Assembly: GCA_013695765.1 (NCBI GenBank)
Contig: JACCZW010000071.1
Coordinates: 1 to 61,287 of the forward strand
Length of the DNA: 61,287 nt
Reading direction: 5' to 3'
Source: Gammaproteobacteria bacterium
GTDB taxonomy: Bacteria > Pseudomonadota > Gammaproteobacteria > JACCYU01
The position numbers and the translations under genes were made by a program. Positions 9,416-28,566 of this stretch are shown here, one piece after another. Numbering within the stretch: the first letter of the stretch is position 1; each line of letters begins with the position of its first letter. The notes below the pieces were generated by a model. That model was not told where the DNA came from. It saw only the letters and a list, made by a program, of their open reading frames with translations, and did not search any database.

Positions 9416-10609
9416 ATGCGATTGAAAAGCTTACGAATCATCCCGCTATGCCTGGCGGCGCCCGCGCTTATTCTGATGTTAGCCGCTTGTGGCGGCAAGA
9501 CCGAGCGCCAGACACAAGCGCCAGCACCGCTGGTAGTAACGGTAGCTCAGCCGCTGATCAGGCAGATTGCCAACTGGGATGAGTACACCGGCCGCCTGGC
9601 CGCCGTCGACGCGGTTGAGGTGCGGGCGAGAGTCAGCGGTTACCTGAAATCGGTGCATTTAAGAGACGGTGCGATCGTCGACAGAGGCGATCTGCTGTTC
9701 GTGATCGATCGGCGACCATACGAGGCAGCGCTGGACCGCGCCTCGGCGCAGGCTAATCAGGCCGCGACGCAACTTAAACTGGCCCGTGACGAGCGCGAGC
9801 GCGCCGAGCGTTTGTATGAGTCTCGCGCGGTCTCGGAAGAAGAACTTAATGTCCGTGTGCAGGCCGAACGCGGAGCCGCCGCGCGGCTGGAGGCGGCGCA
9901 GGCCGCGGTCTCGACCGCCGAGCTGGACTTAAGTTTTACGCGGGTGCGTGCGCCGATCGGCGGCCGCATCTCGCGCGAGTTGGTGACGCAAGGCAATTTG
10001 ATCGGCGGCGGCAGCGCCAGCTCGACCTTATTAACAACTATCGTGTCACTGGACCCCATCTACGTCTATTTTCCCACCGACGAATATGCCTATCTGCGTT
10101 ATGCGCGCACGGCCGACGCCGGCGAACAGCCCGGTACTCGTGATCAGCAATATCCGGTGCGGTTGCAGCTCGCCGACGAGCAGGGTTTTCCGCACCAGGG
10201 GCATCTGGACTTCATCGATAACCGCATTGACGAGGCGACCGGCACCATGATGGGCAGGGCCGTAATTCCCAACCCGGATTACCTGCTGGTGCCGAGGCTA
10301 TTCGCCAGAGTCGAGCTGCGTGGTCAGGGTCCATCGCGTGCGCTGCTGATACCGGACGCCGCGATCGGCACCGATCAGGCGCAGAAGTTCGTATACGTGA
10401 TCAACGAAGACAACGTGGTGGCGCGCAAACGCGTGGTGCCGGGCGAGCGCCACGGCAACTTGCGCGTGATCAGCGACGGCCTGACGGAAGGCGATCGAGT
10501 CATCGTCAAGGGCGTGCAGCGCGCCACACCAGGCGCGAATGTTAACCCGCGGCGGATCAGCCTGGAGTCACCGCAACCGCCGCGCCAGGCGCGTTTGCGC
10601 CGGCCATGA
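9416..10609 (+). CDS. RND efflux periplasmic adaptor (membrane fusion) lipoprotein
   Basis: The 397-residue protein begins with a lipoprotein signal and lipobox LAAC (acylated Cys25), placing it on the periplasmic face of the inner membrane. It has the AcrA/MexE domain order: barrel-sandwich half with EVRARVSGYLKSVHLRDG, an alpha-helical hairpin (about 105-170, rich in AQA/LARDERERAERLY), the second lipoyl half (FTRVRAPIGGRI), then beta-barrel and membrane-proximal domains. It links the inner-membrane pump to an outer-membrane channel. Its TGA overlaps the ATG of the pump gene (ATGA at 10606), so both are translationally coupled. No outer-membrane factor gene is adjacent, so the pump probably uses a TolC/OprM-like protein encoded elsewhere. 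No regulator gene is next to it. Substrates cannot be predicted. Confidence 0.93.
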   Translation: MRLKSLRIIPLCLAAPALILMLAACGGKTERQTQAPAPLVVTVAQPLIRQIANWDEYTGRLAAVDAVEVRARVSGYLKSVHLRDGAIVDRGDLLFVIDRRPYEAALDRASAQANQAATQLKLARDERERAERLYESRAVSEEELNVRVQAERGAAARLEAAQAAVSTAELDLSFTRVRAPIGGRISRELVTQGNLIGGGSASSTLLTTIVSLDPIYVYFPTDEYAYLRYARTADAGEQPGTRDQQYPVRLQLADEQGFPHQGHLDFIDNRIDEATGTMMGRAVIPNPDYLLVPRLFARVELRGQGPSRALLIPDAAIGTDQAQKFVYVINEDNVVARKRVVPGERHGNLRVISDGLTEGDRVIVKGVQRATPGANVNPRRISLESPQPPRQARLRRP

Positions 10610-13600
10610 ATTTTCCTCACGTCTTCATCGAGCGCCCGCGCTTTGCGGTGGTGTGCTCGCTTTTGATCACCATTGTAGGTGCGGTGGCCTACTTCGGCTT
10701 GCCGATCACGCAGTATCCCGAGATCGCACCGCCGACCGTTGTGGTGTCGGGCACTTATCCTGGCGCCAACCCGGAAGAAGTCGCCGAGACCGTCGCGACG
10801 CCGCTGGAGCAGGAAATCAACGGGGTCGAGGGCATGTTGTACATGAACTCCAACACCACCAGCGACGGCGCGTTCGAACTGGAAGTCACGTTCGAACTCG
10901 GCACCGATCTGGATACCGCGCAGGTGCTGGTGGAGAACCGCGCGTCGGTGGCCGAATCGAGACTGCCCGAGGAGGTGCGCCAGCAGGGTCTCATCACCCG
11001 CAAGCGCTCGCCGGACCTGATGATGGTGGTGCACGTGCTGTCGCCGGATGGCACTTACGACGAGCTTTACATCAGCAACTACGTGGAGTTGCAGATCGCC
11101 GAAGTGCTCAGAAGAGTCGAGGGCGTGGGCGACATCATCGTGTTCGGCGCGCGCGAATACAGCATGCGCATCTGGATGGACCCGGAACGGCTGGCGTCGC
11201 TGAATCTCACCGCCAGCGACGTTACCCGTGCCTTGCAGGGGCAGAACGTACAGGTCGCCGCCGGCACGCTGGGTCAGCCGCCGATGCCGCTGGACAACGC
11301 GTTTCAACTCACCGTCAACACGCAAGGCCGTTTTGCCACGCCCGAACAGTTCAGTGACGTCATCGTCAAGGCCGGCGCCGACGGGCGCCTGGTGCGGCTG
11401 GGCGACGTGGCCAGAGTGGAGCTGGGCGCGCAGGACTACGTGCGCAATAGTTATCTGGACGGTCAGGCGGCCGCCGGCATCGGCGTATTCCAGTTGCCGG
11501 GCGGCAACGCGCTCGCCACCGCCGACGAGATCCGCGCGGTCATGCGCGACCTGTCGCAGGACTTCCCACCCGGGCTCGCGTACGAGATCGCCTACGACCC
11601 GACGCAGTTTGTCGAGGAGTCGATCAATTCGGTGTACGTGACGATCTTCGAGGCGGTCGTGCTCGTGTGCCTGGTGATCATCGCGTTTTTACAGACGTGG
11701 CGTGCGGCCGTGATCGCGATCGTGGCGATCCCGGTCGCCTTGATCGGCACCTTTGCGGTGCTTACGGCGTTGGGCTTTTCGCTCAACAATCTGACCCTGT
11801 TCGGGCTGGCGCTCGCGGTTGGCATCGTGGTGGACGACGCGATCGTGGTGGTCGAAAATATGGAGCGCAACCTGCGGGCGGGCCTGAGCGCGCGCGAGGC
11901 CGCCCACAAGACCATGGACGAGGTCGGCGCGGCGCTGATTTCAATCGGGCTGGTGTTGTGTGCGGTGTTCATTCCCGCGGCCTTCATCGGCGGCATTTCG
12001 AGCCAGTTCTTCCAGCAGTTCGCGGTCACCATCGCCGCGGCGACCATCATCTCGACGTTTGTGTCGCTGACCTTAAATCCGAGTCTGGGCGCGCTGCTGC
12101 TGAGAAAGAACGACGACGACGCGCGTGGCTTTTTCAGCCGCCTGACGCGACCGTTCTTCCACGGCTTCGATCGCGCCTTCGAAGCTGCCAGCCGCGGTTA
12201 CGGGGCGGTGGTGAGCAAGCTTGTGCGCCATTCAGTGATGGTGCTGGTGGTCTTTGTGATTCTGATATTTGCCACCGTGTTCGCGATCAGCCAGGTGCCC
12301 GGCGGATTTATACCCGAGCAGGATCAGGGTTATCTCATCGTGTCCGTCAAGTTGCCCCAGGGCGCCTCGTTACAACGCACGGATGCGGTGGTGAAACACG
12401 CCGACAGCTTGATACGCAAGACGAAGGGTGTGGCGCACGTGGTTGGAATCGCGGGCTTTTCCGGCGTTACGCGCGCGACCTCGCCTTATGAGGCGGCGAT
12501 GTTCGTGTTGCTGCCACCCTTCGCGGAGCGTGCGTCCGGCGAGACGGCTACGGCGTTGATCGGCCGTTTGCAGAAGACCTTGTCGGGCATACAGGCGGCC
12601 GAGTTTCTGGTGATCGAGCCGCCGGCGGTGCGCGGCCTGGGCACCAGCGGCGGTTTCACCATGATGCTGCAGGATCGCGGCGGTGCGGGCTTGCAGGCGC
12701 TGGAGCGGGCGACCGGCGAGTTGTTAGCGGCAGCCGCCGGGTCACCGAACCTTGGAAGTGTTTTTACCACCTTCAGCACGGACACGCCGCGTTATTATCT
12801 CGACATCGACCGCACCAAGGCCGAGATGCTGAACGTGCCGGTGGAAAACGTCTTCAGCACGTTGGCAACAAATCTGGGCTCATCGTATGTCAACGATTTC
12901 AATCTGTTCGGACGCGTTTTTAGGGTAACGGCGCAAGCAGATGCCGAGTATCGTCTGGAGCCGGACGACATCATGCAGTTGCGTGCGCGCTCTGACACCG
13001 GCGCGATGGTGCCATTGGGTTCGCTGGCCGAAATCCGCTGGACCACGGGTCCGGACCGGGTGGTGCGCCATAACCTTTATCCGGCGGCCGAGGTGCAGGG
13101 CAACGCCGCACCGGGCATTAGTTCAGGCGCGGCGTTGACCGCCATGGAGCAACTCGCGGCGGAACATCTGCCGCAAGGCTTCGATTTCGAGTGGGTGGAG
13201 ACGGCGTATCAGGAGCGCGAAGCCGGCAACACGGGCCTGCTGGTCTTCCCCTTGAGCGTCCTGTTTGTGTTTCTGTTGCTCACCGCGCAGTACGAGAGTT
13301 GGTCGCTACCGCTCGCGATCATTCTCATCGTGCCTTTGTGCCTGCTGTTCGCGATCACCGGCATCTGGTTGCGTGGCATGGACAATAACATTCTCACGCA
13401 GATTGGCTTCGTGGTGCTGATCGGCCTTGCGTGCAAGAACGCGGTGCTGATCGTGGAGTTTGCCAAGCAGCGGCAGAATGAAGGCAAAGACCGCTTCACC
13501 GCCGCCATCGAAGCTGCACAGATGCGGCTGCGCCCGGTGTTGATGACATCGTTCGCCTTCATCCTCGGTGTGGTGCCGCTGATGCTTGCTTCCGGCGCCG

Positions 13601-13770
13601 GCGCGGAGATGCGTCAGGTTCTGGGTACGGCGGTATTCAGCGGCATGCTGGGCGTGACCTTCTTCGGCCTGCTGTTTACGCCGGTGTTCTACGTGGTGAT
13701 CGAAGGATTTATCGATCGTCGCGCGCAGCGGGCTGCCGAGAGCACAGGGGAGCGCGCCGCACAGGCGTAA
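10606..13770 (+). CDS. RND multidrug efflux pump, HAE-1 (AcrB/MexF-like) permease
   Basis: At 1054 residues it has the size and layout of AcrB-type trimeric H+/drug antiporters: TM1, a large periplasmic porter loop, TM2-7, a second loop and TM8-12. The paired aspartates needed for proton relay are present in TM4 (D410-D411 in AVGIVVDDAIVVVENMERN). Also visible are the N-terminal FIERPRFAVV, the PITQYPEIAPP start of the porter domain, and the TM10-11 GLACKNAVLIVEFA segment. It forms an operon with the adaptor lipoprotein by a 4-base overlap. The nearest subgroup by eye is MexF/AcrB of broad specificity; antibiotic, solvent or fatty-acid export cannot be told apart. The gene is intact. Confidence 0.95.
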   Translation: MNFPHVFIERPRFAVVCSLLITIVGAVAYFGLPITQYPEIAPPTVVVSGTYPGANPEEVAETVATPLEQEINGVEGMLYMNSNTTSDGAFELEVTFELGTDLDTAQVLVENRASVAESRLPEEVRQQGLITRKRSPDLMMVVHVLSPDGTYDELYISNYVELQIAEVLRRVEGVGDIIVFGAREYSMRIWMDPERLASLNLTASDVTRALQGQNVQVAAGTLGQPPMPLDNAFQLTVNTQGRFATPEQFSDVIVKAGADGRLVRLGDVARVELGAQDYVRNSYLDGQAAAGIGVFQLPGGNALATADEIRAVMRDLSQDFPPGLAYEIAYDPTQFVEESINSVYVTIFEAVVLVCLVIIAFLQTWRAAVIAIVAIPVALIGTFAVLTALGFSLNNLTLFGLALAVGIVVDDAIVVVENMERNLRAGLSAREAAHKTMDEVGAALISIGLVLCAVFIPAAFIGGISSQFFQQFAVTIAAATIISTFVSLTLNPSLGALLLRKNDDDARGFFSRLTRPFFHGFDRAFEAASRGYGAVVSKLVRHSVMVLVVFVILIFATVFAISQVPGGFIPEQDQGYLIVSVKLPQGASLQRTDAVVKHADSLIRKTKGVAHVVGIAGFSGVTRATSPYEAAMFVLLPPFAERASGETATALIGRLQKTLSGIQAAEFLVIEPPAVRGLGTSGGFTMMLQDRGGAGLQALERATGELLAAAAGSPNLGSVFTTFSTDTPRYYLDIDRTKAEMLNVPVENVFSTLATNLGSSYVNDFNLFGRVFRVTAQADAEYRLEPDDIMQLRARSDTGAMVPLGSLAEIRWTTGPDRVVRHNLYPAAEVQGNAAPGISSGAALTAMEQLAAEHLPQGFDFEWVETAYQEREAGNTGLLVFPLSVLFVFLLLTAQYESWSLPLAIILIVPLCLLFAITGIWLRGMDNNILTQIGFVVLIGLACKNAVLIVEFAKQRQNEGKDRFTAAIEAAQMRLRPVLMTSFAFILGVVPLMLASGAGAEMRQVLGTAVFSGMLGVTFFGLLFTPVFYVVIEGFIDRRAQRAAESTGERAAQA

Positions 13771-14421
13771 TCTCTGGCGCTTGTTGGGAGCGTGCAGGGC
13801 GGAAGCCCAGGCTAGCGTGCTGCCGCGAAGGTGGGTGGAACCGCCGCGGTAGGTGGATACGCCCGTTAAGCTACCGTGAGCGGGTCGAACAAGGGGCGAC
13901 GGGTTTTATCCGCCCTACGTGGCTACATTGCCTGCTGACCTTACCATTTTGCGGAGGCATTAAAACAAAAGCCCTCGTCTGTCACTCCCCATCCTCACCT
14001 TTCCCCGTCAAAGGGGAAGGAGTCGTAGCCTGCCAACCTGGCCCGTCAATGACCTGATGGGACCTCCGGGCGCTCACCCAATCAACACCCTTCCGCCGGG
14101 AATCCATTAACTGATCTGCGCTCGCCGCGCGTCCACGTTTGAATTCGCTATTGCGGGTGATAAGCGGCGAGGCTGGACAGACAGGTGGTCGCCATAATCT
14201 TGGCCACACGCCATAGACTACCGCTTATCGTTTCGTTCGAACCCTTTAACAATACCCGTCAAAATTCGTGTACTTAACGCGCCAAAAAGTCTCGGCCCGG
14301 ATGCAGGGAATAGGAATTAGGCATGCAACGCGTCCTGACCCGGCAGGCTTCGTCGCGGGTTCCTCGCGTCACGGCGTGAGCCAGTCGTGCTATCGGCCGT
14401 CGCGGCGCCGAGAGGCGTCTC
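13771..14421. other. Repeat-rich intergenic region
   Basis: This 650-base gap has no recognisable gene. It holds a diverged copy of the GTAGGGTGGAT-type element (about 13829-13919, with TAGGTGGATACGCC and GGTTTTATCCGCCCTAC) and a CCCC/GGGG hairpin repeat (13988-14027). The remaining 14030-14420 has short frames on both strands without family resemblance. Confidence 0.5.
13988..14027. repeat. Hairpin repeat, copy 1 (TTTCCCCGTCAAAGGGGAAGG)
   Basis: The sequence contains CTTTCCCC GTCA AAGGGGAAGG, a short hairpin with 7-8 paired bases. Its reverse complement closely matches 45951-45985 (CTCCTTCCCC(C)TTTGACGGGG then GGTGAGG). Two oriented copies far apart indicate a dispersed intergenic repeat family. 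Confidence 0.6.
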
Positions 14422-15284
14422 ATGGCAGCCAATGAGCTGATACTGATCGCGCCCGTCGGTCTTCCCGCAGCGAAAGTCCGTCTGCTGACCAGCATGTTTC
14501 TGCTTTCCAGATCCCGGCCGCGAAGTTATGCGCTCGCCACCAGATTCGAGGAAGCTAAAATCCTCATGGTAGACGCGGACAACGCGGGCGCCCTTGCCAG
14601 TTGGCGCACGATGCTCGCCGCCCGGCCCGGCGTTCCCACCGTTTTCGTGAGCCAGCGGGCCGCGTGGATCCTAAGCAATATCACTTACAGCGGCGCTTCT
14701 CGATCGGCAAGGTGCTGCAGCTACTCGACCAGATAGCGCTCACCGAGCTCAAGGTCACAGCCGGCGTGGCGATCGGTGACACGACTGCGGTGCAAACCAC
14801 AATTGAAAATCAATATGCGAACGAAGCCCATCTGTACGGCGCACAGACAAAATCAGCGGCGGCGGGCGGCGAACAGCGGGTTCTTGTCGTCGACGACAGT
14901 CCAACGGTGCGCAAGCAGATCGAACTCGGCCTGCTTCCCTATCGCGTCACCGTAGATCTCGCCGAAACGGGCGAGCGAGCCCTGGAGCTTATAGCCAGAC
15001 AAACCTACGTCCTGGTCTTCCTGGACGTGGTGCTGCCCGGAACGGATGGCTACCAGGTATGTAAGAGCATAAAAAAACAGGCAATTACAAAAAAGACGCG
15101 GGTGGTGATGCTGACTGGCAAATCTTCGCCGTTCGATCGCGTGCGCGGAACCCTGGCAGGCTGCGACGCCTATTTGACCAAGCCTGTCGAAAGCAAAACT
15201 TTCCAGGGCGTGCTGCAAAAGTATCTGACCGTGCCCGCACAGCAGGGCGGGGTTCGTAACGCGGCCGCGCCGACGAACGCATGA
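14422..15284 (+). pseudogene. pilG: PilG-like response regulator, frameshifted
   Basis: The gene encodes an N-terminal segment of about 80 residues that ends VPTVFVSQRA in frame 1, then continues in another frame as VDPKQYHLQRRFSIGKVLQL. The junction near 14665 reads GCCGCGTGG where GCCGTGG would keep the frame, a two-base duplication. The C-terminal part is a complete receiver domain: acidic pair in LVVDDSPTVRKQ, phospho-acceptor in FLDVVLPGTDG, and conserved lysine in YLTKPV. It ends at TGA 15282-15284. Its place at the head of PilH-, PilI-, PilJ- and ChpA-like genes marks it as the first gene of a Pil-Chp twitching/surface-sensing operon. The receiver half could still be made from an internal start. 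Confidence 0.75.
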
Positions 15285-15417
15285 CGCATTCAGTGATGCC
15301 AGGCCGATACCGTATGAAACGCACCTTTTCTAAGGTAATGCCTGTTTTATCGACATGTTTATGCAACACGTTTAATGCACCAACCGTTCAACTCACTTAA
15401 ATCCAAGGAGTCACAAA

Positions 15418-15780
15418 ATGTCCAAGAAAGCCCTGGTTGTAGACGATTCGCCCGCCGAACTGGCCAACATCAAGTCCATTCTCGCCGACGCCGGCTGTCT
15501 CGTCGTTACCGCATCGACCGGTAAGGAAGCTGTGGCAAAGGCAAAGGCCGAACGTCCCTCGGTAATTTTTCTCGACATCGTCATGCCCGATATGGACGGC
15601 TATGAAGCCTGCCGCCTGCTCGCCGAAGACTCGACCACCAAAGGCATTCCGGTTGTATTCGTAACCAGCAAGCGTCAGAAAGCCGACAAGGTCTGGGGTC
15701 AGATGCAGGGCGCCAAAGGCCACGTGGTCAAGCCTTACACGCCTGACCAGATCATCGACCAGCTGAAAGCCGTTTCTTAA
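15418..15780 (+). CDS. pilH: PilH-like single-domain response regulator
   Basis: This 120-residue receiver domain is complete: acidic pocket DD in ALVVDDSPAE, phospho-acceptor D in FLDIVMPDMDGYEAC, T in FVTSKRQ and lysine in VVKPYT. The segment KADKVWGQMQGAKGHVVKPY is typical of PilH. AAGGAG at 15405-15410 lies seven bases before the ATG. PilH works with PilG and the ChpA kinase to control type IV pilus extension and retraction, or acts as a phosphate sink. Only this gene and pilI are unbroken in the cluster, so its upstream kinase is probably absent. Confidence 0.88.
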   Translation: MSKKALVVDDSPAELANIKSILADAGCLVVTASTGKEAVAKAKAERPSVIFLDIVMPDMDGYEACRLLAEDSTTKGIPVVFVTSKRQKADKVWGQMQGAKGHVVKPYTPDQIIDQLKAVS

Positions 15781-15790
15781 AGGCTGGGGG

Positions 15791-16351
15791 ATGATCGCCA
15801 TGGATGCGCCTGAAATGCAACAGGAAGCCGCCGAATGGCAGTCGCCGAGCGCCGCCCTCAATCGCTTCGAACCGCCGGAGGGGACGCTTTTCGAGGCGAG
15901 CCAGGGGGCTAAGGCACGCACTCGTTACGGTTGCCAGATCGGCACCATCCACTTACTGATCGGCATGAACACCGTCAGCGAAGTTATGCCTCTGCCGGTG
16001 CTGGCCCCCGTCCCCAATACGCCTCCGTGGCTTAAGGGATTGCTCAACCTGCGCGGCAACCTGGTGCCGGTATTCGACCTGAAACTCCTGCTCGAACTTG
16101 AGGAACAAGAATCGGCGGGCAAGGCCATGGCGCTCATCCTGGACAAGGGCGAGCTGGCGGTCGGCATCATCGTCGACGGGTTTCCGCGACCGCTCACCGC
16201 ATTACGCAGCGTACAACACCTGCCAGAGTTGCCAAGGCGGCTGCATGCTTACGTATCCGCGGGCTATATGCAGGACGACGTGTTGTGGCTGGAGTTCGGC
16301 CACGAGCAGTTCTTCGATTCTCTAACCGGCACGCACAACGACAACCCCTGA
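15791..16351 (+). CDS. pilI: PilI-like CheW-domain adaptor
   Basis: The 186-residue protein carries one CheW domain from about residue 45 to 175, with the signature PPWLKGLLNLRGNLVPVFDL and the following ILDKGELAVGIIVDG strand. The N-terminal 40 residues are a short acidic extension. CheW adaptors connect the receptor (PilJ) to the kinase (ChpA) at the membrane. It starts 10 bases after pilH, with GGGGG just before the ATG at 15791; a second ATG at 15800 is possible. Both expected partners are broken downstream, so the protein is probably an orphan in this genome unless other chemosensory arrays exist. Confidence 0.87.
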   Translation: MIAMDAPEMQQEAAEWQSPSAALNRFEPPEGTLFEASQGAKARTRYGCQIGTIHLLIGMNTVSEVMPLPVLAPVPNTPPWLKGLLNLRGNLVPVFDLKLLLELEEQESAGKAMALILDKGELAVGIIVDGFPRPLTALRSVQHLPELPRRLHAYVSAGYMQDDVLWLEFGHEQFFDSLTGTHNDNP

Positions 16352-16489
16352 AACTAGGCAGCGTTAAATTTTTTTCCGCCTGCTCTTATAGAGCGCGGGG
16401 CCAGCCAGCGGATCATTTGTCAATCATCGGTCGGATAACATGAGGGAATAGAAAGTGAAACAACTAAACTATCTAGCGCGCTGCGCGAT

Positions 16490-18548
16490 ATGCCGGTAGC
16501 CCGCAAGTTCCAGGTGCTGATGGGGATGATCCTCATCGGTTACGTGTTGGTGGGCGTCGACTACTTTCTCTCGCTGCGAGCGGAAGAAGGGACGCAGAAA
16601 GTGCTCTCGGGCCACCACGAATTCGCCGCCGACGTGGACAAGCTCGAGATTGCGCTGCTCCAAGCCGAAGAGTTCGAAGTCCAGTTCCTGCGCACCGGCG
16701 ACATGTCGTACGCCCAGAGGTTCGACGAGTTTCCGCAAGCCGCGCTGGTCGATCTGGACGCGGTGCGGGCGGAAACGAGCAACGAGCGCGAGCTCGCGCT
16801 GCTCTCCGATCTGGGCAGGGAAATGGCCGCGTACCGTGAAAAATTCACCGAGATCACCGCCATGCAGCAAGCCTTGGGCGCGGACGAAAACAGCGGTCTG
16901 CTGGGTAGGCTGATCAAGGCGGCGCAGTTGGCCGACTCGGACATTAGACAGGCAAATGCGACACCGCTATTGGCTTCGCTGCTGCAGATGCGTGTGCACG
17001 AGAAGAACTTCATCCAACGCGACGCGGAAATCTATCTCCAGCGGCACGCCGAGGAGTAAGTCAGCTTCGAACAACAGCTCGCTGCCCAGAAGCTAGGCGA
17101 GCCGGTGCGCGCGGCAATTGCCGGGGACATGGCGGAATACCGGAACGCGCTAGAGGCGTTCGCCAAAGTGAGTTTAGTGCAGGTCGAACTCGCCCGCCAG
17201 CTCGACATCGAGATCGAGAAAATAAACCCGGTGCTCGACGAGATCGACAAGGTCAAGAACGTAGACGTGGCTGAGATCATAACGCAGAGCGCGGTGCGCC
17301 ACCGCAACACCATCATAGTATTCGTCGCCATCCTGCTGCTCAGCACGGCTGCTGTGGCGGCCGGCGCGTGGCTAGTCGCGCGCAGTGTTACTCGCCCGAT
17401 CGAAAACCTGCGGGGGACCATGCAGAAACTGCAACAAGGCGACAACGAGGCGCGCGCCGAGATGATGGGCAGGGACGAACTGGGCCAGCTCGCGTACAAC
17501 TTTAACTCGATGATGGATGAGCGCTTCGCGGTTCAGACCAGAATTCAGACGGAAAACGACAAGCTCAACGACTCGGTGTTGGGCCTGCTGCAGGCGGTGG
17601 CGCAACTCTCGCGCAGGGACTTGACGATCAAGGTGCCGGTAACCGAAGACGTGACCGGCCCCGTCGCGGACGCGCTAAATCTGATGACCGGCGAAACCGC
17701 CAAGGTGTTGCTGCTGGTGTCATCCCTTTCCGCTGACGTTACGTCCGCTTCGTTCAAGGTGAAGGAGCAGTCCGACAGCGTCATGGCCGGCGCCGCGGAC
17801 GGACAGCGCGAGGTGGAGTTCACGGCGCAATCATTAGGTGCTACGGCCGAAGCCATGAACCGCATCGCAGCACTTGCCGAGATCTGCAACACCGCCGCCG
17901 ACAACGCGATCAAGAATACCGAGACCGCGCTGCTGTCGGTGAACAGTACCGTAGGCGGCATCAACGGCATTCGGGATACCATCCGCGAGACGGAGAAACG
18001 CATCAAACGCCTGGGCGAACGTTCGCAGGAAATTTCCGGGGTGGTGAACCTGATTAACACCATCGCGGAACGCACGCACATTCTGGCGCTCAACGCCTCG
18101 ATGCACGCGGCTTCAGCAGGTGAGGCGGAACGCGGTTTCGCGGTGGTGGCGGACGAGGTGCAGAGGCTGGCGGAAAACGCGCGCCAGGCCACGGCGGAAA
18201 TCTCCACCCTGGTGAGGCAATATCCAGCTTGAAACGGCGGATACGGTGAACACCATGAACACCGCCATCAGCCAGGTCGTCGAAGGTAGCAAGCTCGCGG
18301 AGAAGGCCGGTGAACAAATGCAGGAGACGCAGAGAACAACCGCCGCCCTGGTGACGTCGGTGCAGCAGATCGCCAAAAGCTCGCAGGAGCAGGCGCAAGC
18401 CAGTCACCAGTTGATCACCCGCGCCAAGGCCATGCAGGACAGCAGCCAGAAAACCAGCCGGCAGTTGCAGAGCACGTACACCGACAACCTGGTGGAGTAT
18501 GCGATAGGACTGATTACCGCGGTGCGCGTATTCAAGCTGCCGGCCTGA
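16490..18548 (+). pseudogene. pilJ: PilJ-like methyl-accepting chemoreceptor, broken by one stop and one frameshift
   Basis: Three pieces read as one chemoreceptor. Piece one (16490-17056) has an N-terminal membrane helix (VLMGMILIGYVLVGVDYF) and the start of a periplasmic helical sensor region. A TAA at 17057-17059 interrupts HAEE/VSFEQQ; the same frame then continues through the second membrane helix (TIIVFVAILLLSTAAVAAGAW), a HAMP domain (RSVTRPIENL) and most of the signalling hairpin, including its tip ERTHILALNASMHAASAGEA. Near 18215 one extra base shifts the frame, and NIQLETADTVNTMNTAISQV continues the receptor to 18548. In Pseudomonas, PilJ senses pilus retraction signals and feeds ChpA. 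The mutations make a full-length product impossible. Confidence 0.8.
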
Positions 18549-18612
18549 CAACAAGGGAGCGAAGGCCGCGGCGACAAGCCGCGGCGCTACTCCCAACATC
18601 AATTCAACATGG

Positions 18613-21600
18613 GTGAACATGCACACGGCGGAAGTCAACGCGGCGCGATTTAACACGGAGACACGCGCCTGTCTGCCCTGGTTTCGCGTCGGAGCTACGT
18701 CGCTGGACGACGCGGACGGCGTCAAGCGCACGCTCGATCGCTATCTTTGGGCCTTGCAACGCATCGAAGAGGCGGGGTCCGAGTCGACGGAGGTGAACGA
18801 GCTGGAGTTGCTGAGCGCATGTGCCGTGCTGGCGGGCAATCTGATGGACTGGCGCGATCAGGCCAGGGCATTGACGGCGGTTGAACGCGGCCTTTTGGAG
18901 GCGTGGCCGACGCTGTTGATGCGCAATCTGGAGCGCCCCGATGACGACCAAACTCATGCGGACATAGCGCAATATCTTACCGACCCCGCCTGGAGCATGT
19001 CTCCCTCCACGCTAGTGACGGAAGACCAGGACAGCATGTTGCAAGCGCCGGAAGAAGCGTTTGTCGCCACCGATCTGGAAGTCGAAGACATGGGCATCGA
19101 AGGCTCAGGCTCGCTGGCCCATTTTCCGGGAGAAAAGGGCCTGGTTCGGCTATCGCGCGCGGAGATAGAGGACCTGCTGGCGTCGCATTCCGAGCTGGAG
19201 GACGCCGGGATTGATGAACCGGGCGCCGGGGGCGAGGAAACGGGATTCGAACAATCCGGAAGCGAAGCATTTGACTTCGCCGTTGAAACCACCACGAACC
19301 AGGCACTACATGCGTCCGACGCCTGCGCGGAGCTACCCCAAACGCACGCGACCGATCTGAATTTGAATACGAATGCTAATATACCGCTCATGGCCGGACA
19401 TGAGGCGGCGCTTGATCGCTCCGAGCTGGATGCGTCTCCGATGGGTCTTACCGATGCATCGCCTGCCGATCAGCGCTCCTCGCAGGCCGAAAATGAGTTC
19501 GTCCAGTTGCTGCGCGACGAACTTGCGGCCAGCGCGGACGCCATGACCGAGATGCTGGTCACCATGGCCGCACCGGACGCCGAGCAGACGCTGCGCACAC
19601 GGGCGCTTGGCGATTACCTCGAGTACATCGATCGTCTGGCGATGGCCGCCGAGGCCATGGGTCTCGCCGGTTTGCGCCTGGTATTCACTCACGTTCAAAT
19701 CAATCTGCCCGCTGCCGGCACGGAATCGTACGATATTTAAGCAAGCCTGCATGCGCTGCTGCAAGCATGGCCAGCGCTCGTATTCGACTATCTGCTCGAC
19801 GTCGGGAATGGTGAAACCATTATCACCATCGTGCAACATCTGCGAGACGCTGGCTGGCCACAACCACTATCCGCGGAAGATGCCACAGGGCTGGCCGAGG
19901 CGCTCGCAACCCCGGTGTTTATGAGCAGCGATGCCGAGACGGAGCCGCGTCAGACGCAAGCCTACGCCGACGACATTTCTCTGGCGTTGCCGGACGATCT
20001 GAATCCAGAACTGCTCGATGGCCTGCTACAGGAATTGCCGGTGCAGGTTGGCGCCTTCACCGGCGCCATGCAGCGCATCGTCATCGGCGCCGGAACGAAA
20101 AAAGATCTCGAAGAAGCCAAGCGCGCCGCGCATACGCTCAAGGGTGCGGCCAATACCGTCGGGGTGCGCGGCATCGCCAATCTGACGCACCACTTAGAGG
20201 ACATCCTGATCGCGTTATCCAAACGCGAAGCCATGCCCAACCGGCCCCTGGCGAACACGCTGATGAACGCCGGCGACAGCCTGGAAGCCATGAGCGAGGC
20301 GCTGCTCGGTGCGGGCGATGAACCCACCGACGCATTGCAGGTATTGCAGGAAGTACTTGACTGGGCCAATCGCATCGACCGCGAAGGCGTGCCGGCGCCG
20401 GACGAATCGGGAGTAGCTGGAGCGCAAGCGCTCGCTCCGGTACAGCCTGAACAACAGGAAGCCGCCGGGGAAGCCGCGACCCCGATGCTCCGGGTTCCGG
20501 CCAGCGCGGTAGACGAAATGTTGCGCCTCAGTGGGGAAATGATCATCTCCAACGGCCAGCTCCAGGAACGCCTGCGTCAGTCGCGTAAACAGGGCAAGAC
20601 GCTCGCCACGCAGCAAGCCTTGTTCCAGCAGCTCACCGTCGAACTCGAAAACCTGGTGGACATCCGCGGCATGGCCACGCGTTTGCAGCGCGTCGACAGC
20701 GATGACGAATACGATCCGCTGGAGTTCGAGCGCTACAGTGAATTACACACGATCAGCCGGCGCCTGATCGAGGCCGCCAACGATGGGCGCGAGATGTCGG
20801 CCGAGGCGGAGCGATCGTTCACCGGACTGAACGACGTGATCGAGGACCAGCAGAGGCTGCAACTCCAGAGCCAGGACGCCGTCATGCGCACCCGCATGGT
20901 AAAGGTGAAGACCATTTTCTCGCGTCTCCAGCGTGCCGTGCGCCAGACCTGCCGTCTGCTGGGCAAGCAGGTGGAGCTCAACCTCGCCGGTACCGATACT
21001 TACGTGGACAGCAACGTGCTCAACGACCTGGTGGACCCGTTGATGCACATACTGCGTAACGCCATAGACCACGGCATCGAATCCGCCGAGCGGCGCGAGG
21101 AGCGAGGCAAGAATCCGGTCGGCCGCATCGACCTGTCGTTCGGCAGGGAAGGGCAATTACCTGATGGTGCGTTGCAAAGATGACGGGGCCGGGCTGAACC
21201 TGGACGTAATAAGAATTTCCGCCGAGAGCAAGGGCATGATTAGCGCGGACGGCATGCTCTTGGAAGACGAGATCAGCCGCCTGATTCTGGTGCCGGGATT
21301 TTCCACCCGCACCGAAACGACCCAGGTATCGGGACGCGGAATCGGCATGGACGTAGTCCAAAGCCGCGTGTTGGAAATGAAGGGTTCGTTGAACCTGCAT
21401 TCCGACACCGATCGCGGTTTGACGGTCGAACTGCGCATCCCCGCCACCTTGATTTCGATCAATGGATTGCTGGTCCGCGTTAGAGATAAGCTGATGGCGA
21501 TATCCAGCCGGGGTATCGAGGACATTCATTACGTCACGCCGGAGCAGATCAAAGTCCTGGGCAACGGCCATACCTACCATGCCAGCGGGCAGATTCTTGA

Positions 21601-22263
21601 TGTGGTGAGCCTGGAACGCCTGCTCGATCTCGACGAAGATCGGCGCAACATGACTCGGGCCGGCGTTCCCGTCCTGCTGGTTAGGCTGGACTCGGGCGCG
21701 CTGCGGGCGATTCTCGTGCAAGAGGTGGTGGACAGCCGCGACCTCGTGGTAAAGCGCCTGAGCCGTTACATACCCAAAGCCAGGGGTGTGATCGGCGCCA
21801 CCATTGCGGGCGATGGTAGCGTGGCTTCGGTCATCGACCTGCCGGAATTACTACGCAATCCCGACCGCGCCGAACGACATGCCGCCGTCTCGCGAACGAC
21901 TACGACACGTGGCACTCGCGATTTGCCTAACGTGGCGAAACGGCTGGCACTGGTGGTGGACGATTCGCTTACCGCGCGTCGCTCCGCCGCGGCAGTGATG
22001 CGTAACGCCGGCTTCGAGGTGCGCATGGCGCTCGACGGGCTGGAAGCAGTCGCCCTGCTCGAGAAGCTGGTGCCGGACATAATCTTGTCCGACCTGGAGA
22101 TGCCGCGCATGAATGGCCTTGAATTCATCGCGCACGTGCGTGCGCGGCCCAGCACCAGGACGGTTCCCATCATCATGATTACCTCTCGCTCCACCGACAA
22201 ACATCGCCAGCAGGCAACCGCGGCCGGAGTCAACACCTACTTGACCAAGCCGTTCAACGCTTT
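18613..22263 (+). pseudogene. chpA: ChpA/PilL-like hybrid CheA histidine kinase, broken
   Basis: The gene has the domain order of large Pil-Chp kinases: an N-terminal helical region without kinase motifs (to about 19730), Hpt with HTLKGAANTVG near 20135, a dimerisation/P4 region, HATPase with ILRNAIDHGIE (N box), DDGAG and GRGIGMDVV, a CheW domain (about 21420-21860) and a receiver domain with VVDDSLTARR and LSDLEMPRMNG. Three lesions are visible. A TAA at 19738-19740 lies in the N-terminal region with the frame continuing after it. An extra G near 21151 (GAAGGGCAATTAC) shifts the frame just after the N box. The receiver ends abruptly after TYLTKPF at about 22258, where following sequence no longer resembles the family. 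Hpt domains are fewer than in Pseudomonas ChpA. Inactive as a single protein. Confidence 0.8.
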
Positions 22264-22443
22264 CCGGCGCTTACCCAGTACCCGATTGCATGGTTCCGGC
22301 AGGGTCGCCAGTCACGGCGCTGGTTCGCCACGGCGCTGTCATGGCCTGCGTCACCAGCGCGCAGCGCATGGCGGATTATCTTGGTTGGCGGGTCCCGGAG
22401 ACGACGCTTGCCGCGGTGCAATCAAACAGCGCGAGGAGCGATC

Positions 22444-22925
22444 ATGGCTGAGGCGGGCGCGTGGCTATTGCAATTCGGCGCGCACGACCGCACCGCGATT
22501 GGGCGACGCGAACTGCTGCATCTGGTGGATGCGGTGGAATCGTTCCCGGTTCCCCTGGCGCCCGCTCATTGCCGTGAGGTGCTGTACTGGCAGGATCGAC
22601 CCGTGCCGCTCATGGACCTGGCCGTGTGGCTGCGCGCCGATGCGGGGCAGGACACGAGAAAATATGTCGGCATCGTCGGCTACCAGTTGAAGCGTGCAGG
22701 TGCGCCGCGCTTTGGCGCCTTGTGGCTGGCCGCGGCGCCTGTCCGGGTCGAGGTCAGCGACGAGCAAACCTGTGATTGCCTGAAACCGGCGCGGATTGGC
22801 GGGCGATCGCCCGTTCCTGTTTCCAGGACAAATCCGGTCGGACGCCGGTGCTCGACCTTCCGCGGCTTTTCTCGCGTCCGGCTGGCGTCGACCGACAGCG
22901 GTCGGCCTTGGCTTCGGCCCGGTAG
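22444..22925 (+). pseudogene. chpC: ChpC-like CheW-domain protein, frameshifted
   Basis: From ATG 22444 the frame gives a CheW-like N-terminal half (GRRELLHLVDAVESFPVPLA, then CREVLYWQDRPVPLMDLAVW). Close to 22775 the frame changes: the continuing frame reads PETGADWRAIARSCFQDKSG and RTPVLDLPRLF and ends at TAG 22923-22925. The total length (482 bases) is not a multiple of three, so one indel is required. ChpC is an accessory CheW protein at the 3' end of Pil-Chp operons, which fits its position here. Confidence 0.7.
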
Positions 22926-22975
22926 TTTCGCGACTGCTGTCCGTCCGCTGCCGTTACCAGCAACTTTCTCGCGAA

Positions 22976-23545
22976 CTACTGCCTGGCGGGTTCTACACCA
23001 GGGCAAGGCGGACACGCGCCGGTGCCAAGGAAGGTCTTGCCTGGGTCGATCAGAGCAATGTCAGCCAAAAAGCCGCGGCCCAGTAACGCGGGATAGGTGA
23101 GCAGGCTCCGATCCTTGAGACTGAATTCCGCATTGAAACGCCGCCCGTTAAGGCAAAACTCAAGCGTTACTACAGGCCGTCGATCGTAACTGCCGTCGAA
23201 TTCCTTGATTAAAGCGTCGCGCACAACCGGGCGCTCAACTTCGACCCCTGGCTCTGTTGGTCTGCCGTCCTCGTCCTGAGCATCATCAAGCTCAAGTATA
23301 AAACGCGCCCATTCTCTATTTCCTCGGTCGAAGCGCTCAATGCGTTCGGCCTGCATCGATGAGGTTTGCGCGCCGGTGTCAAGCCGCGCCTTTATCGTGA
23401 ATCCCCACGGTTCAAGGGTGATACGTTCCACCCACCCCAGGACGGCGTGTGTGGCTGATTCCGGATCAGACCATGCGGTGCCGGGCGCCACTAGCGCTAG
23501 CGAGGGAATCAGCAAAGCGATTGCTCGTGTGCGCTTAAACATCAT
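22976..23545 (-). CDS. Periplasmic retropepsin-like aspartic protease family protein (RimK-associated 'ATP-dependent zinc protease' family)
   Basis: The 189-residue protein begins with a Sec signal peptide ending near AWS and so should be exported. The core has the family motif LGWVERITLEPWGFTIKARL followed by the active-site-like D56-T57-G58 in DTGAQTSSM, the typical retropepsin-like arrangement, and a C-terminal LLGRGFL segment. The family is often annotated as 'putative ATP-dependent zinc protease' although it has no ATP-binding motif; some members lie beside RimK-like ligases. No such neighbour occurs here. It is convergent with the chpC remnant, leaving about 50 bases between them. Substrate unknown. 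The long charged insert (about 75-110) is unusual in my reading but frame-consistent. Confidence 0.75.
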   Translation of the reverse strand: MMFKRTRAIALLIPSLALVAPGTAWSDPESATHAVLGWVERITLEPWGFTIKARLDTGAQTSSMQAERIERFDRGNREWARFILELDDAQDEDGRPTEPGVEVERPVVRDALIKEFDGSYDRRPVVTLEFCLNGRRFNAEFSLKDRSLLTYPALLGRGFLADIALIDPGKTFLGTGACPPCPGVEPARQ

Positions 23546-23955
23546 TTAATGCCTTTGCACTATAATAAATCGGTCCAGCAATCTATTCACCTACCGCGGT
23601 GGATAGCGCCCCGCCGGGCCAGCCGAAGCTGTTCATAAATCGTTCCAGACTATTTTTTCGGCGCGATGCGCCTAATCTATCCTACAAACGATCCTTCACC
23701 TGAGAAATAATACAGCGGCGTTTATCGTTTTTTGCCCGAGTTCGTTTCGTCATCATTACCTGCTTGTCAATGGTAGCTTACGCGCACGGGTGTAAACCGT
23801 CCCTCGTTTGGCGAGGGCGCGCGCTACCGGGTCGGTGCGAACAAGCTGACGCGATCGTTTGCCAATGATCCTCCCGTGGCCGCCGACGCCTGAGGGAAGT
23901 TTTCTCTCTTCCGGAGCACAGCGTCCGGAGGTGATCGTGGCACTGTTGCAACAGG
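23546..23955. other. Intergenic region with repeat traces
   Basis: No gene recognised in about 410 bases. It includes a degenerate relative of the GTGGAT-type element (CTACCGCGGTGGATAGCGCC at 23589-23608 and AATCTATCCTAC about 80 bases later). It separates two divergently transcribed genes and probably carries their promoters, but no clear -35/-10 pair stands out. Confidence 0.45.
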
Positions 23956-25101
23956 ATGCATGAGTTCAAGCCGAAAGATGATGCGTTAAAGATCACGATT
24001 GTCGGTGGATCGATAGGCGGGCTCTGCGCCGGTGTCGCGCTGCGCGGCGTTGGCGCGGACGTGCGCATTTATGAAAGCCATCCCGGCCCGATGGAAACGC
24101 GCGGCGCGGGCATCGTGGTTCAGGATGATCTGACGACACTCTTGCAGCGGTACAACGCGCCGGCGCTGCCGACGACAAGTTGCCGCTTGCGCCGCTACCT
24201 CGAACCCGACGGAGGCGAAGGCCGGATGCAAGCAATGCCGCAGCGCTTCACGTCCTGGGAAGCGATCTACAAGACCTTGCGCGAGACGTTTCCGGAGGAC
24301 CGTTATCACATGCGCGCGCGGGTAAAGTCTTTCGAGCAGATCGGTAATCGGGTCACGGCGAACATCGAACGACACAAGCCGGTCGCCAGCGATGTTCTCG
24401 TCTGCGCCGACGGGGCGAACTCGGCGAGCCGGCGTCGACTGCTACCTGATGTCAAACCTCGCTATGCGGGTTACATCGCCTGGCGCGGAACCCTTGATGA
24501 ACCGGATGCGCCGAGTCATCTAGTGGCATTTTTCGACGACGCGTTTACTTTCTCCGAGGCGCGTTCCGGCGGTCATATCCTGGTTTATTTGATACCTGGC
24601 GAGAATGCCGATTCAGCTTCGGGCAAACGTCGCCTCAACTGGGTCTGGTACGTGCACATGACCGAAGACATGTTAGCTTCCACACTGGTCGATCGTCATG
24701 GTCACCGGCACCTTAGCTCGCTGCCGCAAGGACTCGCGCCAGACGGCGCAATTCAAGAACTTTGCGCGCGGGCGAAGCGCGAAGTGCATCCTCGATTTGC
24801 CGAACTGCTCGAGGCGACAAAGGACCCGTTCATCCAGACCATCATCGACATCACCGTGCCGCGGACGGTCTTTGGTCGTGTGATGCTGTTGGGCGACGCG
24901 GCCTTCGTCGTACGGCCACACACGGCGGCCGCGACCGCAAAAGCGGCGCACGACGCCAGCGCGCTCGCCAATGCGCTCGAACGTGCCAGGCAGAACGTGG
25001 ACATGAGCCTGAAGAACGCTGAGACGTTGCAGATTGAACTCGGCCAGCGCTTGACGCAGTACGGCAAGGCCCTGGGCAGTAACTGGACAAGCAGAAAGTG
25101 A
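23956..25101 (+). CDS. FAD-dependent monooxygenase (PHBH-fold)
   Basis: The 381-residue protein is a class A flavoprotein hydroxylase. The N-terminal FAD loop is ITIVGGSIGGLCAGVALRG, the second FAD/NADPH motif is DVLVCADGANSASRR, and the C-terminal FAD ribityl motif is VMLLGDAAFVVRPHTAAATA. Together these match the 2,6-dihydroxypyridine 3-monooxygenase / HspB-like subgroup, in which HTAAA replaces the more usual P-x-x-G-x-G. It should hydroxylate an aromatic or N-heterocyclic substrate using NAD(P)H and O2 in the cytoplasm. No other ring-degradation gene is nearby, so the substrate is unknown. The gene appears intact, and an ATG at 23956 gives a normal N terminus. Confidence 0.85.
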   Translation: MHEFKPKDDALKITIVGGSIGGLCAGVALRGVGADVRIYESHPGPMETRGAGIVVQDDLTTLLQRYNAPALPTTSCRLRRYLEPDGGEGRMQAMPQRFTSWEAIYKTLRETFPEDRYHMRARVKSFEQIGNRVTANIERHKPVASDVLVCADGANSASRRRLLPDVKPRYAGYIAWRGTLDEPDAPSHLVAFFDDAFTFSEARSGGHILVYLIPGENADSASGKRRLNWVWYVHMTEDMLASTLVDRHGHRHLSSLPQGLAPDGAIQELCARAKREVHPRFAELLEATKDPFIQTIIDITVPRTVFGRVMLLGDAAFVVRPHTAAATAKAAHDASALANALERARQNVDMSLKNAETLQIELGQRLTQYGKALGSNWTSRK

Positions 25102-25429
25102 GAGCACAGGGAAGATCATCGATGGCGACATTGCGCTGGCGCACTCAATGACCCAAAACTTTGACCAAAACATAGAGAATCGTCCCTCGCACGCGGATCA
25201 CGTGTGTACTCTTCGTTGCGGCCGACTCGGCCAAGGCGTTCGAGATCTGTGACTTTCTGAACTGGAGCGTCGTCGCGTATGACTGGATCGAGCCTGCCTC
25301 CGATGACGACGATCGCCGGCTGCCGGGCATTGGGTTCTTGCGGGACGCGCGGCTGCCGCTTTGCGAACTGCCGAACGGCGCGTTTGTGCATTCCGCGCGT
25401 ACATGACATTGCCCACGCTTCGGGGATGG

Positions 25430-25902
25430 GTCACCACTCCAAAGTTCATTAATGCGACGCATCAGTTCCAGATCCTCAGGGGAACACGATCGGGCTCGGA
25501 AATAGACCGAACGCAAGGCTGACTGCGACCAGAACGCACTGGCGCACCATACTCAACTGGGGATGGGGCTCGATCATCTCGCGGCGTTCCTTGGCGCTCA
25601 GTGACTGAGCTTTCTGGATAAAAAATCGCGTTCCACCGTCACCTGGTCGATCACCGGTACAGTTTAACAACGCTCTGCGCGCGTTCGCCCCTGGTGTCAT
25701 CGCCGTCACCCTCGAACACCGTGTTCAGGTTCTCCAGCGCCTGGTGTTTCCACTGGTTGATCTGCGTTGGGTGCAGCCGGTAACGTGCTGCCAACTCGGC
25801 CGAGGTCTCGGTCTCTTTCAATGCCGCTAAGGCCACATTGGCCGTGAACTCGACACTGTGCTGCTTGCGCTCCTGACTCATTTCGCTGCCTCTTGATAGC
25901 AT
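25430..25902 (-). mobile_element. IS3-family insertion sequence remnant (OrfA plus start of OrfB)
   Basis: On the minus strand the frame from about 25881 gives MSQERKQHSVEFTANVALAA and ELAARYRLHPTQINQWKHQA, the helix-turn-helix transposase OrfA of IS3-like elements. OrfB start follows in other frames as QSLSAKERREMIEPHPQLSM and VRQC, then VYFRARSCSPEDLELMRRIN. At least two frame breaks occur. After RINEL the similarity ends; the catalytic DDE domain is missing. The upstream end may lie near 25925-25945 (TGAAGTGGCC on the minus strand), but no matching far end was found, so the element is truncated and immobile. Confidence 0.75.
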
Positions 25903-26221
25903 GCAAGTCAGAGCTTACACCCCTGTCCAGATCTTGAGGCCACTTCAGAGTTCCGCACGCTATCGTCAAATCTAGCCACTTCATCGGGGCGCTGTACGTA
26001 ACACGAGCCGGCGCCTGATAAGTTCTACTGGCGTGGAATGGCAATAAGAACCTTGAGTTGAAGAAACTTCCGATATCGGGTGTTCGGCCACTTTTGCCGA
26101 TTTATTACCTATACAACGAACACCAGCACGCAATAAAAATGCGTTCGCGCTCTACGTCTACACCCACCAGGGCCGGTCGATTGCACCGATGCTTATCAGA
26201 ATTATATAAAGGGGAGAAGCA
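25903..26221. other. Intergenic region before the Ig-like/DUF3494 lipoprotein gene
   Basis: No gene recognised. The left part is probably the end of the IS3 remnant. The right part is AT-richer and ends in a strong ribosome binding site (GGGGAGA at 26211-26217), so the promoter of the lipoprotein gene most likely lies here. Confidence 0.45.
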
Positions 26222-28159
26222 ATGAATAGATTCGAAAGCGCTACCAAGCCACTAATACGGTCCATGGCATTACTGCTGCTCGCTTTGACGGCAGGGTGCG
26301 GAGGCGGAGGCGGCAGCGACGGAGGAAACGATGCCGTACTCGCCCCCACCGTGACTCCCACGGCCCCTGTTGCCACAACGCCCATAGGCACAGGCGTGGC
26401 GATCAACAGCAAAATTAGCGCTACCTTCAGTAAGGATATGGCCCCTGCAACGATCAACACATCAACCTTTACGTTGAAATGCCCCGCTGGAGTGGCCGTG
26501 GCAGGAATAGTTGCCTATGTTAAAGCAAGCCGCTCCGCAACCTTCTCGCCTACCGCCAATCTCCCAGCCGGCACCACATGCACTGCCAATATTACAACCG
26601 GGGCCCAGGACACCGCAGGCGTCGCATTGGCAGAAGCCTTTGTATGGAAGTTTAGGACAGGCTCAACGGTAGACACCACACGGCCCAAAGTGGCGCGCAC
26701 AGTCCCTGCTGCTGGTGCTACAGGCGTCCCGAAAAACACAAAGATCACCGCGACGTTCAGTGAAGACATGGACCCGGCAACGATCACCGGAAGGACCTTT
26801 AAGCTGAGAGGACCCGGCGCAACCGCCGTAGCAGGCACCGTGAGCTACGCCGGCACAACCGCCACCTTGACAGCATCGAGCATGCTGGCAGCCAGCACCA
26901 CATTTACTGCGACCATTACCGCGGGCGCCAGGGATCTAGCCGGCAACGCCTTGGCAAATGCCTTTGTATGGAAGTTTAGGGCAGGCAGAACGGCGGATAC
27001 CACACGACCCCAAGTGCGTTCCACAAACCCGCCTGATGTTGCCGTCGGTGTGTGTAGCAACAAGACCATCAACGCCACCTTCAGTGAGCCGATGGATCCG
27101 CTAACGATCACGACGGCCTCCTTTACGCTCGCAGTCACCAGTGGCGCATCCGTAAAGGGAGTAGTGGCCTACGATGCAGTGACGAAAATCGCAACCTTTA
27201 ACCCGGTAAGGAATCTCACGGGGACTCCCGCGACCAATTACACCGCCACGATCAAAGGCGGCGCCAACGGGGTCAAGGACCTGGCAGGTAATTCACTTGC
27301 AGCCGACAAGGTCACGACCTTTACCACCAATGCATCGGCCTGTACTACTGCACCAGCGCTAGGAGCGGCAGCGCCTTTCGGAGGTTTTTGTGGGAGCGCC
27401 ACACTGACCAACGACGGGCTTGACACCGTGATTAACGGGGATATCGGGGTCAGCGCGGCTTCAACCCAGATAACCGGATTGCGCGATTCGGGAGCAAACG
27501 TTTATACGGTCACGACGAGTAATGACGGAATGGTGAATGGGCTGATATACACGCTTACGGCCCCGCCGGGTTCTGTCGCAGGCGATGCCGTAACGCGGGC
27601 TCGTGCCGACGCATTGGTCGCATTCAACTCCCTGTCTCCCGCCAGCCTTCTAGGGGGTATCGATGTGTCGAATCTGGCACAGTGTCCAAGCTGCGGTGGC
27701 GCCGGGGGCGGGCCCGACGAACTGGCTGGGCGCACCCTTCCCCCTGGGGTCTATCTGTCCGCCACGGGCACGTATGACATCGGAGGCGCGGGGCGTGCTA
27801 CGGCCAATCTTACGTTGGACGCCGGGGGCGACGTAAACGCTGTCTGGGTGTTCCAGAGCGCAGCCGGGACAGGCACTCTCAACGTGGGCCTTACGGGTCC
27901 GGCAACACCGGCAGTCCCGATCCAGGTTCGGCTGATAAACGGCGCAAAGTCCAAGAACGTCTTCTGGTACGTCCCGGCTGGCGCGACCATTGGCACCGGA
28001 TCAACGATGGTGGGGACCATGTTGGCCGACGCTTCGATCACGATATCCACTACCGGCGGCACCCCGCCAACGGCTGTAACAACGACATTGAATGGCAGGG
28101 CGATTGCCTTGACTGCGGGGGTTACCATGACGAACACCGTGGTCAACAGGCCCCACTAG
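26222..28159 (+). CDS. Surface lipoprotein with three Ig-like (Big_5) repeats and a DUF3494 ice-binding-like domain
   Basis: The 645-residue protein starts with a lipoprotein signal (lipobox LTAGC, acylated Cys26) and a glycine/proline/threonine-rich linker. Three Big_5/SwmB-like repeats of about 105 residues follow, each with the motif KI(S/T)ATFS-D/EPMDPATI and ending in LAGNALANAFVWKFR or a variant; the third ends in DLAGNSLAADKVTTFTT. From about residue 380 the sequence GAAAPFGGFCGSATLTNDGL, TVINGDIGVS, then ELAGRTLPPGVYLSATGTYD and VFQSAAGTGTL is a DUF3494 domain, the beta-helix family of microbial ice-binding proteins, also found in adhesins. The protein is predicted at the cell surface. 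Ice binding is not proven by sequence; adhesion is the main alternative. A hairpin terminator follows. It stands alone, next to IS debris, which hints at transfer. Confidence 0.85.
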   Translation: MNRFESATKPLIRSMALLLLALTAGCGGGGGSDGGNDAVLAPTVTPTAPVATTPIGTGVAINSKISATFSKDMAPATINTSTFTLKCPAGVAVAGIVAYVKASRSATFSPTANLPAGTTCTANITTGAQDTAGVALAEAFVWKFRTGSTVDTTRPKVARTVPAAGATGVPKNTKITATFSEDMDPATITGRTFKLRGPGATAVAGTVSYAGTTATLTASSMLAASTTFTATITAGARDLAGNALANAFVWKFRAGRTADTTRPQVRSTNPPDVAVGVCSNKTINATFSEPMDPLTITTASFTLAVTSGASVKGVVAYDAVTKIATFNPVRNLTGTPATNYTATIKGGANGVKDLAGNSLAADKVTTFTTNASACTTAPALGAAAPFGGFCGSATLTNDGLDTVINGDIGVSAASTQITGLRDSGANVYTVTTSNDGMVNGLIYTLTAPPGSVAGDAVTRARADALVAFNSLSPASLLGGIDVSNLAQCPSCGGAGGGPDELAGRTLPPGVYLSATGTYDIGGAGRATANLTLDAGGDVNAVWVFQSAAGTGTLNVGLTGPATPAVPIQVRLINGAKSKNVFWYVPAGATIGTGSTMVGTMLADASITISTTGGTPPTAVTTTLNGRAIALTAGVTMTNTVVNRPH

Positions 28160-28179
28160 TAAGACTTAAGGTATTTAGA

Positions 28180-28213
28180 CAAAGACCGGCAGACGTATTC
28201 CTGCCGGTCTTTG
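28180..28213 (+). terminator. Intrinsic terminator after the DUF3494 lipoprotein gene
   Basis: A 12-base perfect stem AAAGACCGGCAG (28181-28192) / CTGCCGGTCTTT (28201-28212), extended by a C/G pair, closes an 8-base loop 20 bases after the TAG. The T-run is short (CTTTGTT). Confidence 0.8.
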
Positions 28214-28566
28214 TTACTTGTTCTAAAGTTCTGGTAGACACCAGGTGCCGCGGACCATCCTGGTCGTTGCGCCCCGTGGTGACCCCAGGTCGTTGTCCTT
28301 TGCGTAAGCATCCGGCCATATCCGCGTTTCACCACGGCACTACATTCGCAGACCCATGCTTTCACATTCGTGACGGTCCAGCACGGGCATTTTGCCGCGG
28401 CTGTAAAATGGACCAACACCCTTGCCTGCAGCTTGCCGGCGGTCTGTAACGCCCTGGTTATGCCGCTCGGCGGCCAAGAACACAGACCTTCTAGATGATG
28501 TCGTCGCACGGCGGAATAGCGCGGAGCGATGAATCGTTGGTTCCCCGAGCGTCGTTGCGATCAGAC
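28214..28566. other. Intergenic stretch between converging genes
   Basis: About 350 bases between the terminator and the 3' end of fhcC. Short frames exist on both strands but none was recognised; it may contain decayed mobile-element sequence. Confidence 0.4.

Follow-up and report, generated by a model that had tools for sequence, protein, structure and literature searches.

The classical Pil-Chp cluster of Pseudomonas, a chemosensory array that controls type IV pili, lies beside gshB. More generally, host-restricted or sessile lineages lose motility genes, and the pseudogenization of disused machinery is a well-known process. The genome described here resembles such lineages in that parallel pseudogenes and deletions run across one machine and an integrase-like sequence stands at one of the breaks. 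Two kinds of described cluster are close enough to serve as references. One is the short-ChpA cluster of Candidatus Contendobacter (L039), and the other is the classical type next to gshB in Spongiibacter (L053) and Marinobacter (L064). Losses within Pil-Chp operons are also known from Xylella. According to a published comparison, single genes have been lost there, chpB in one strain and chpC in X. taiwanensis, while the operon is the most conserved of the pilus clusters (PMC8176220). In contrast to that account (PMC8176220), most of the operon is broken here, together with the pilus machine.

The window analyzed is a stretch of 61,287 nucleotides that represents contig C71 of a gammaproteobacterial assembly of 3.13 Mb (164 contigs, 99.3% complete; G000). 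At 14422-22874 it carries, in one cluster, genes for two CheY-like regulators, a CheW protein, a pilus-type chemoreceptor and a hybrid CheA that has Hpt domains and a REC domain at its C-terminus, a combination by which a Pil-Chp array is recognized. Among the 80 kept loci compared, the best match is the Candidatus Contendobacter cluster, which has the same order (pilG-pilH-pilI-pilJ-chpA-CheW-like-chpC) and whose proteins are about 37-72% identical to those of the window where they align. The window cluster differs from it in carrying about seven lesions and in lacking the gene for a periplasmic binding protein between pilI and pilJ. The intact L039 homologs were our reference, and lesions were placed by tblastn with the L039 proteins combined with frame-by-frame translation (table 1).

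Table 1. Features of the window around the Pil-Chp cluster, with the state of each reading frame.
Feature	Position	Strand	State and evidence
Left flank: membrane-fusion protein (adaptor) and RND pump	9416..13770	+	open, conserved in genus-mate
Segment absent at matching genus-mate site	13719..28579	.	borders 159 bp apart in L152 (blastn)
pilG-type response regulator, N-terminal extension and REC	14422..15284	+	frameshifted between about 14640 and 14680; ORFs, frames, tblastn, REC domain
pilH-type response regulator	15418..15780	+	single open frame, full REC match
pilI (CheW)	15791..16351	+	single open frame; CheW match, profile positions 5-90 of 138
pilJ chemoreceptor	16490..18548	+	in-frame TAA 17057-17059; frame change about 18214-18219
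chpA hybrid kinase (Hpt, HATPase, CheW, REC)	18613..22255	+	TAA 19738-19740; frame change about 21149-21153; 3' deletion
CheW-like gene remnant between chpA and chpC	22281..22382	+	matches last part of CheW-like protein, tblastn 38%, E=0.007
chpC (CheW-like)	22444..22874	+	frame change about 22773; L039 ChpC 3-112 and 114-146 in two frames (tblastn)
Right neighbor: RloA3-like retropepsin	22976..23545	-	open; 144 bits, below NCBIfam cut-off 210

Several independent inactivating lesions thus face homologs that are intact in L039, as is expected of a decaying operon. The lesion sites in the cluster number about seven and are of three kinds (stops, frameshifts and a deletion). In pilG the lesion is visible solely as a net change of frame, with residues 1-67 and 96-264 of L039 PilG aligning in two different frames. 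The HAMP and MCPsignal domains of pilJ fall on separate pieces. For chpA, residues 19-878 and 877-1241 of the 1257 in the L039 protein align in two frames. The coding frames of the cluster stay open in places where the alternative frames are full of stops; in chpA, for example, the stretch 18613-21150 has a single in-frame stop as opposed to 31 and 19 in the other frames. Homology to ChpA ceases at 22255, about 16 codons short of the L039 protein, and the deletion beyond this point extends through most of a CheW-like gene, which in the relatives L039, L040 and L049 lies between chpA and chpC. PilH and PilI are 72% (over 116 residues) and 47% identical to their L039 counterparts, PilI in one frame. 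A first-pass annotation of this DNA had described pilG, pilJ, chpA and chpC as disrupted and pilH and pilI as intact, and the comparison with L039 bears this out gene by gene; the GC duplication that it read in pilG is a possible form of the net frame change seen there. A remnant of chpB (CheB) ahead of chpC was also considered and is rejected; the scrap found there matches the end of a CheW-like protein.

The same annotation had pointed to the lack of pilK (CheR) and of an intact chpB as part of the decay. Both genes are indeed absent from the cluster, but we reject their absence as a sign of decay given that the nearest intact cluster has neither. That cluster consists of pilG, pilH, pilI, the periplasmic binding protein gene, pilJ, chpA and two CheW-like genes, and no CheR or CheB was found among its translated open reading frames. 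Searches by tblastn with the CheB and CheR of this genome, run without a positive control, matched neither the loci of nine relatives nor the window. Because L039 has neither gene and the nine relatives' loci gave no match, the absence of pilK and chpB is a matter of architecture, and from these sequences we do not treat CheR and CheB as essential to the Pil-Chp subtype seen here.

A second draft assembly from the same genus (G001, the genus-mate) is 88.9% identical to the left flank of the window by blastn. Its contig C89 carries the RND pump and fhc genes that border the cluster-bearing segment in our genome, and a DNA search of this assembly with positions 14400-25600 returned short matches only and no chp cluster. 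The operon is thus intact in Candidatus Contendobacter and absent from the genus-mate; with two genomes compared, loss there or gain here would both fit. Intact genes had been reported on both flanks, which holds for the immediate neighbors but not for a helicase-like gene further to the left (7782-9245, ResIII/SNF2 and a PLD fragment) that carries a stop and is frameshifted when aligned with the genus-mate, whose counterpart is in pieces too. Also within the segment missing from the genus-mate is a large protein (26222-28159) with a weak C-terminal match to ice-binding proteins. Positions 28567-45000 hold a long run of what we take, from translations alone, to be C1-transfer genes (fhc, H4MPT-type). 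An Rfam search gave no match in the window and three tRNAs in nine stretches of this genome.

Elsewhere in the genome the search for a second chemosensory array yielded two, both broken. The second Pil-Chp cluster belongs to the classical type and spans contigs C8 and C56, which end inside it and share exactly 127 bases, presumably the k-mer overlap of a short-read assembler. It has PilG, PilH, a multi-Hpt ChpA and gshB/rsmE borders in common with the Spongiibacter and Marinobacter clusters and, unlike them, is broken and lacks pilJ and the start of chpA. Its pilG is frameshifted relative to two references, its pilI continues directly, without an intervening pilJ, into the central part of chpA, and this chpA occupies two frames and lacks a stretch that the longest reference contains. 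No pilJ for this cluster was found in the genome, in which MCPsignal matches number only three, two of them the window pilJ. In the genus-mate, gshB and rsmE lie 72 bp apart on one contig at the place where our genome carries the second cluster. Since other gammaproteobacteria keep gshB (five loci) or rsmE (nine loci, among the 80 searched) beside theirs, the second cluster was probably lost in the genus-mate. The third CheA array, on contig C2, which we take to be Wsp-like by its gene order, has a stop in the chemoreceptor gene, two frame changes in cheA and a cheB without its 3' end; its counterpart in the genus-mate is open in the parts covered.

The structural genes of type IV pili fare similarly, several of them being broken or not found. 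Of pilM about 51 codons are left before the contig ends, next to an rve_3 integrase match; the rest of pilM, pilN, pilO, pilP and the 5' part of pilQ had no match in the assembly. The pilN-P genes could lie in a contig lost between repeats. A Pfam search of the far end of the pilQ contig gave nothing; by eye, that end resembles the transposase end at pilM, which is only a suggestion of an insertion-element deletion. Moreover, pilB is frameshifted near its end, pilY1 has two stops, a pilU-like gene on contig C161 is interrupted by a TGA, and no counterpart of the genus-mate PilA was found in this genome. On C161 (L128:7598-13130) a HEAT-repeat protein kinase, a PilT-like gene, a PilU-like gene and a cyclase/FHA gene follow one another, and three of these genes are broken. 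On contig C8, pilT and pilU are fused in frame (L126:9483-10664): the first approximately 400 bases follow pilT of the genus-mate and the remainder its pilU. The product keeps positions 2-342 of the 343 in the PilT/PilU profile and, judged by its sequence, may be a working hybrid ATPase. Still open are the genes that we take to be pilC, pilD and the five minor pilin genes fimT, pilV, pilW, pilX and pilE. With several pilus assembly genes broken or without a match in the contigs, this genome is unlikely to give a normal pilus. The genus-mate has lesions of its own, namely a frameshift in pilO, stops in pilQ and pilU and a frameshift in pilY1. On contig C134 the type II secretion genes are open, and they are conserved wherever the genus-mate has sequence to compare. 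The FlhA/SctV family was found in none of three genomes of the comparison (G000, G001 and G002); the control matched in 4 of 14. The C1-pathway bacteria of a sponge study differ in this respect, as they have a type III secretion system (PMC7313196).

To place these lesions against the background, pilus and chemosensory genes were compared with neighboring genes that have a usable counterpart in the genus-mate. The neighbor count excludes genes that lack a match in the genus-mate stretches retrieved, genes truncated at the end of a stretch, reverse-strand shadows and an insertion-sequence fragment. With the pilT-pilU fusion scored as open, 19 of 36 pilus or chemosensory genes are broken or not found as opposed to 4 of 57 neighbors (Fisher p=9.7e-7), p values here being guides, as gene classes and broken/open calls were set by hand after the data had been seen. 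Adding gltB, which has no counterpart and was left out of the first count, and one ambiguous gene brings the neighbors to 6 of 59 (p=8.2e-6). Against this enlarged set, the figures are 16 of 33 without pilN-P (p=7.3e-5), 14 of 31 without pilM-Q (p=3.2e-4) and 11 of 18 for chemosensory genes alone (p=3.1e-5). The broken neighbors are the helicase, the HEAT-repeat kinase and the cyclase/FHA gene beside the C161 ATPases, gltD, gltB and the ambiguous gene. The genes for the small and large subunits of glutamate synthase, gltD and gltB (L180:4866-5198, L191:3835-5203), are mostly deleted or fragmented, and gltD is open in the genus-mate. The decay leans strongly toward the pilus and chemosensory machine, though other genes have been hit too.

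The age of the breaks can be judged from dN/dS between the two genomes, with medians of 0.16 for 33 controls, 0.20 for 12 pilus stretches and 0.27 for eight stretches of the C2 array (Mann-Whitney p=0.004 between the controls and the 20 pilus and C2 stretches taken together; the window cluster, having no copy in the genus-mate, stands outside this test). Relaxed selection is visible mainly in the C2 array, and the pilus genes lie near the controls. Because drift since the split would give dN/dS near 1 and the values are far lower, most breaks are probably recent.

We therefore regard it as highly probable that the window holds a real Pil-Chp array undergoing pseudogenization, one element in a wider loss by the genus of type IV pili and of the means to control them. 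This agrees with the suggestion in the first-pass annotation of a recent loss of surface sensing or twitching control, which the broken pilus genes, the other broken arrays and a genus-mate without the cluster all support. It is conceivable that sequencing or assembly errors broke the frames of a working operon, in keeping with an assembly in 164 contigs, some of which end within the second cluster and next to what is left of pilM. This is very improbable, and a bare artefact is rejected on indirect evidence, given that the lesions are mostly confined to one functional set, that they include in-frame stops and deletions, that homopolymers reach no more than 4 at the six sites checked, and that the genus-mate, a separate genome, has neither cluster and carries pilus lesions of its own. 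The 127-base overlap of C8 and C56, if it reflects the k-mer of a short-read assembler, likewise speaks against errors.

The window cluster could also have arrived horizontally once the two species had diverged and have worked poorly here from the start, so that its decay would say little about ancestral pili. The absence of the 14.9-kb segment from the genus-mate and the lower GC3 (0.60-0.70) and lower coding score of the adjacent cargo (22976-28156) would fit such an arrival. We nevertheless consider it unlikely. GC3 in the chp genes is 0.67-0.81, and their per-codon coding scores are 0.57-1.18, pilG being the low one, as compared with 0.81-1.27 for seven local genes; this near-local composition does not suggest recent transfer, even if the genes to the right are less typical. 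Furthermore, the classically placed second Pil-Chp cluster and the pilus genes are decaying as well. Less probable still is that the open parts (pilH, pilI, the fused pilT-pilU and the minor pilins) are retained for DNA uptake or signaling in a machine that is being remodeled rather than dying. The dN/dS of the surviving pilus pieces is well below 1 and the fused ATPase is nearly whole relative to its profile, in keeping with such retention. Low dN/dS, however, spans all the time since divergence and is compatible with recent loss, and PilA, the 5' part of the secretin gene and the alignment genes were not found.

In the favored reading, that of an array decaying along with its pili, the two Pil-Chp arrays and the third CheA array show independent small stops, frameshifts and deletions in a setting where most neighbors are open. 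We propose that pili fell out of use, which would have ended selection on the control arrays, and that the unselected arrays would then have gathered point lesions and deletions. The genus-mate would be further along with respect to the Pil-Chp arrays, at least the second cluster having been deleted, and less far along in some pilus genes.

The process itself is ordinary, and what the analysis adds is that the decay in the window is very probably one piece of a larger loss, in the genus, of chemosensing and type IV pili. A multi-locus machine has been caught part-way through its loss in two related species with different lesions, which makes it possible to study in what order and how fast the parts go. 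Domain searches mislead in this genome, as the CheW, MCP, PilT/PilU and PilB families all score and would suggest, wrongly, that pili and chemosensing are present. Every one of the three CheA arrays found here is broken, the sister species lacks both Pil-Chp arrays, and the pilus mutations differ between the two species; that surface sensing and chemosensing are being lost jointly throughout the genus is a tentative idea that we hold to be possible and somewhat doubtful. If true, this would point to a way of life that has recently become fixed, perhaps bound to a host, and the order of loss would be directly readable, with the control arrays and assembly genes going early and the minor pilins late.
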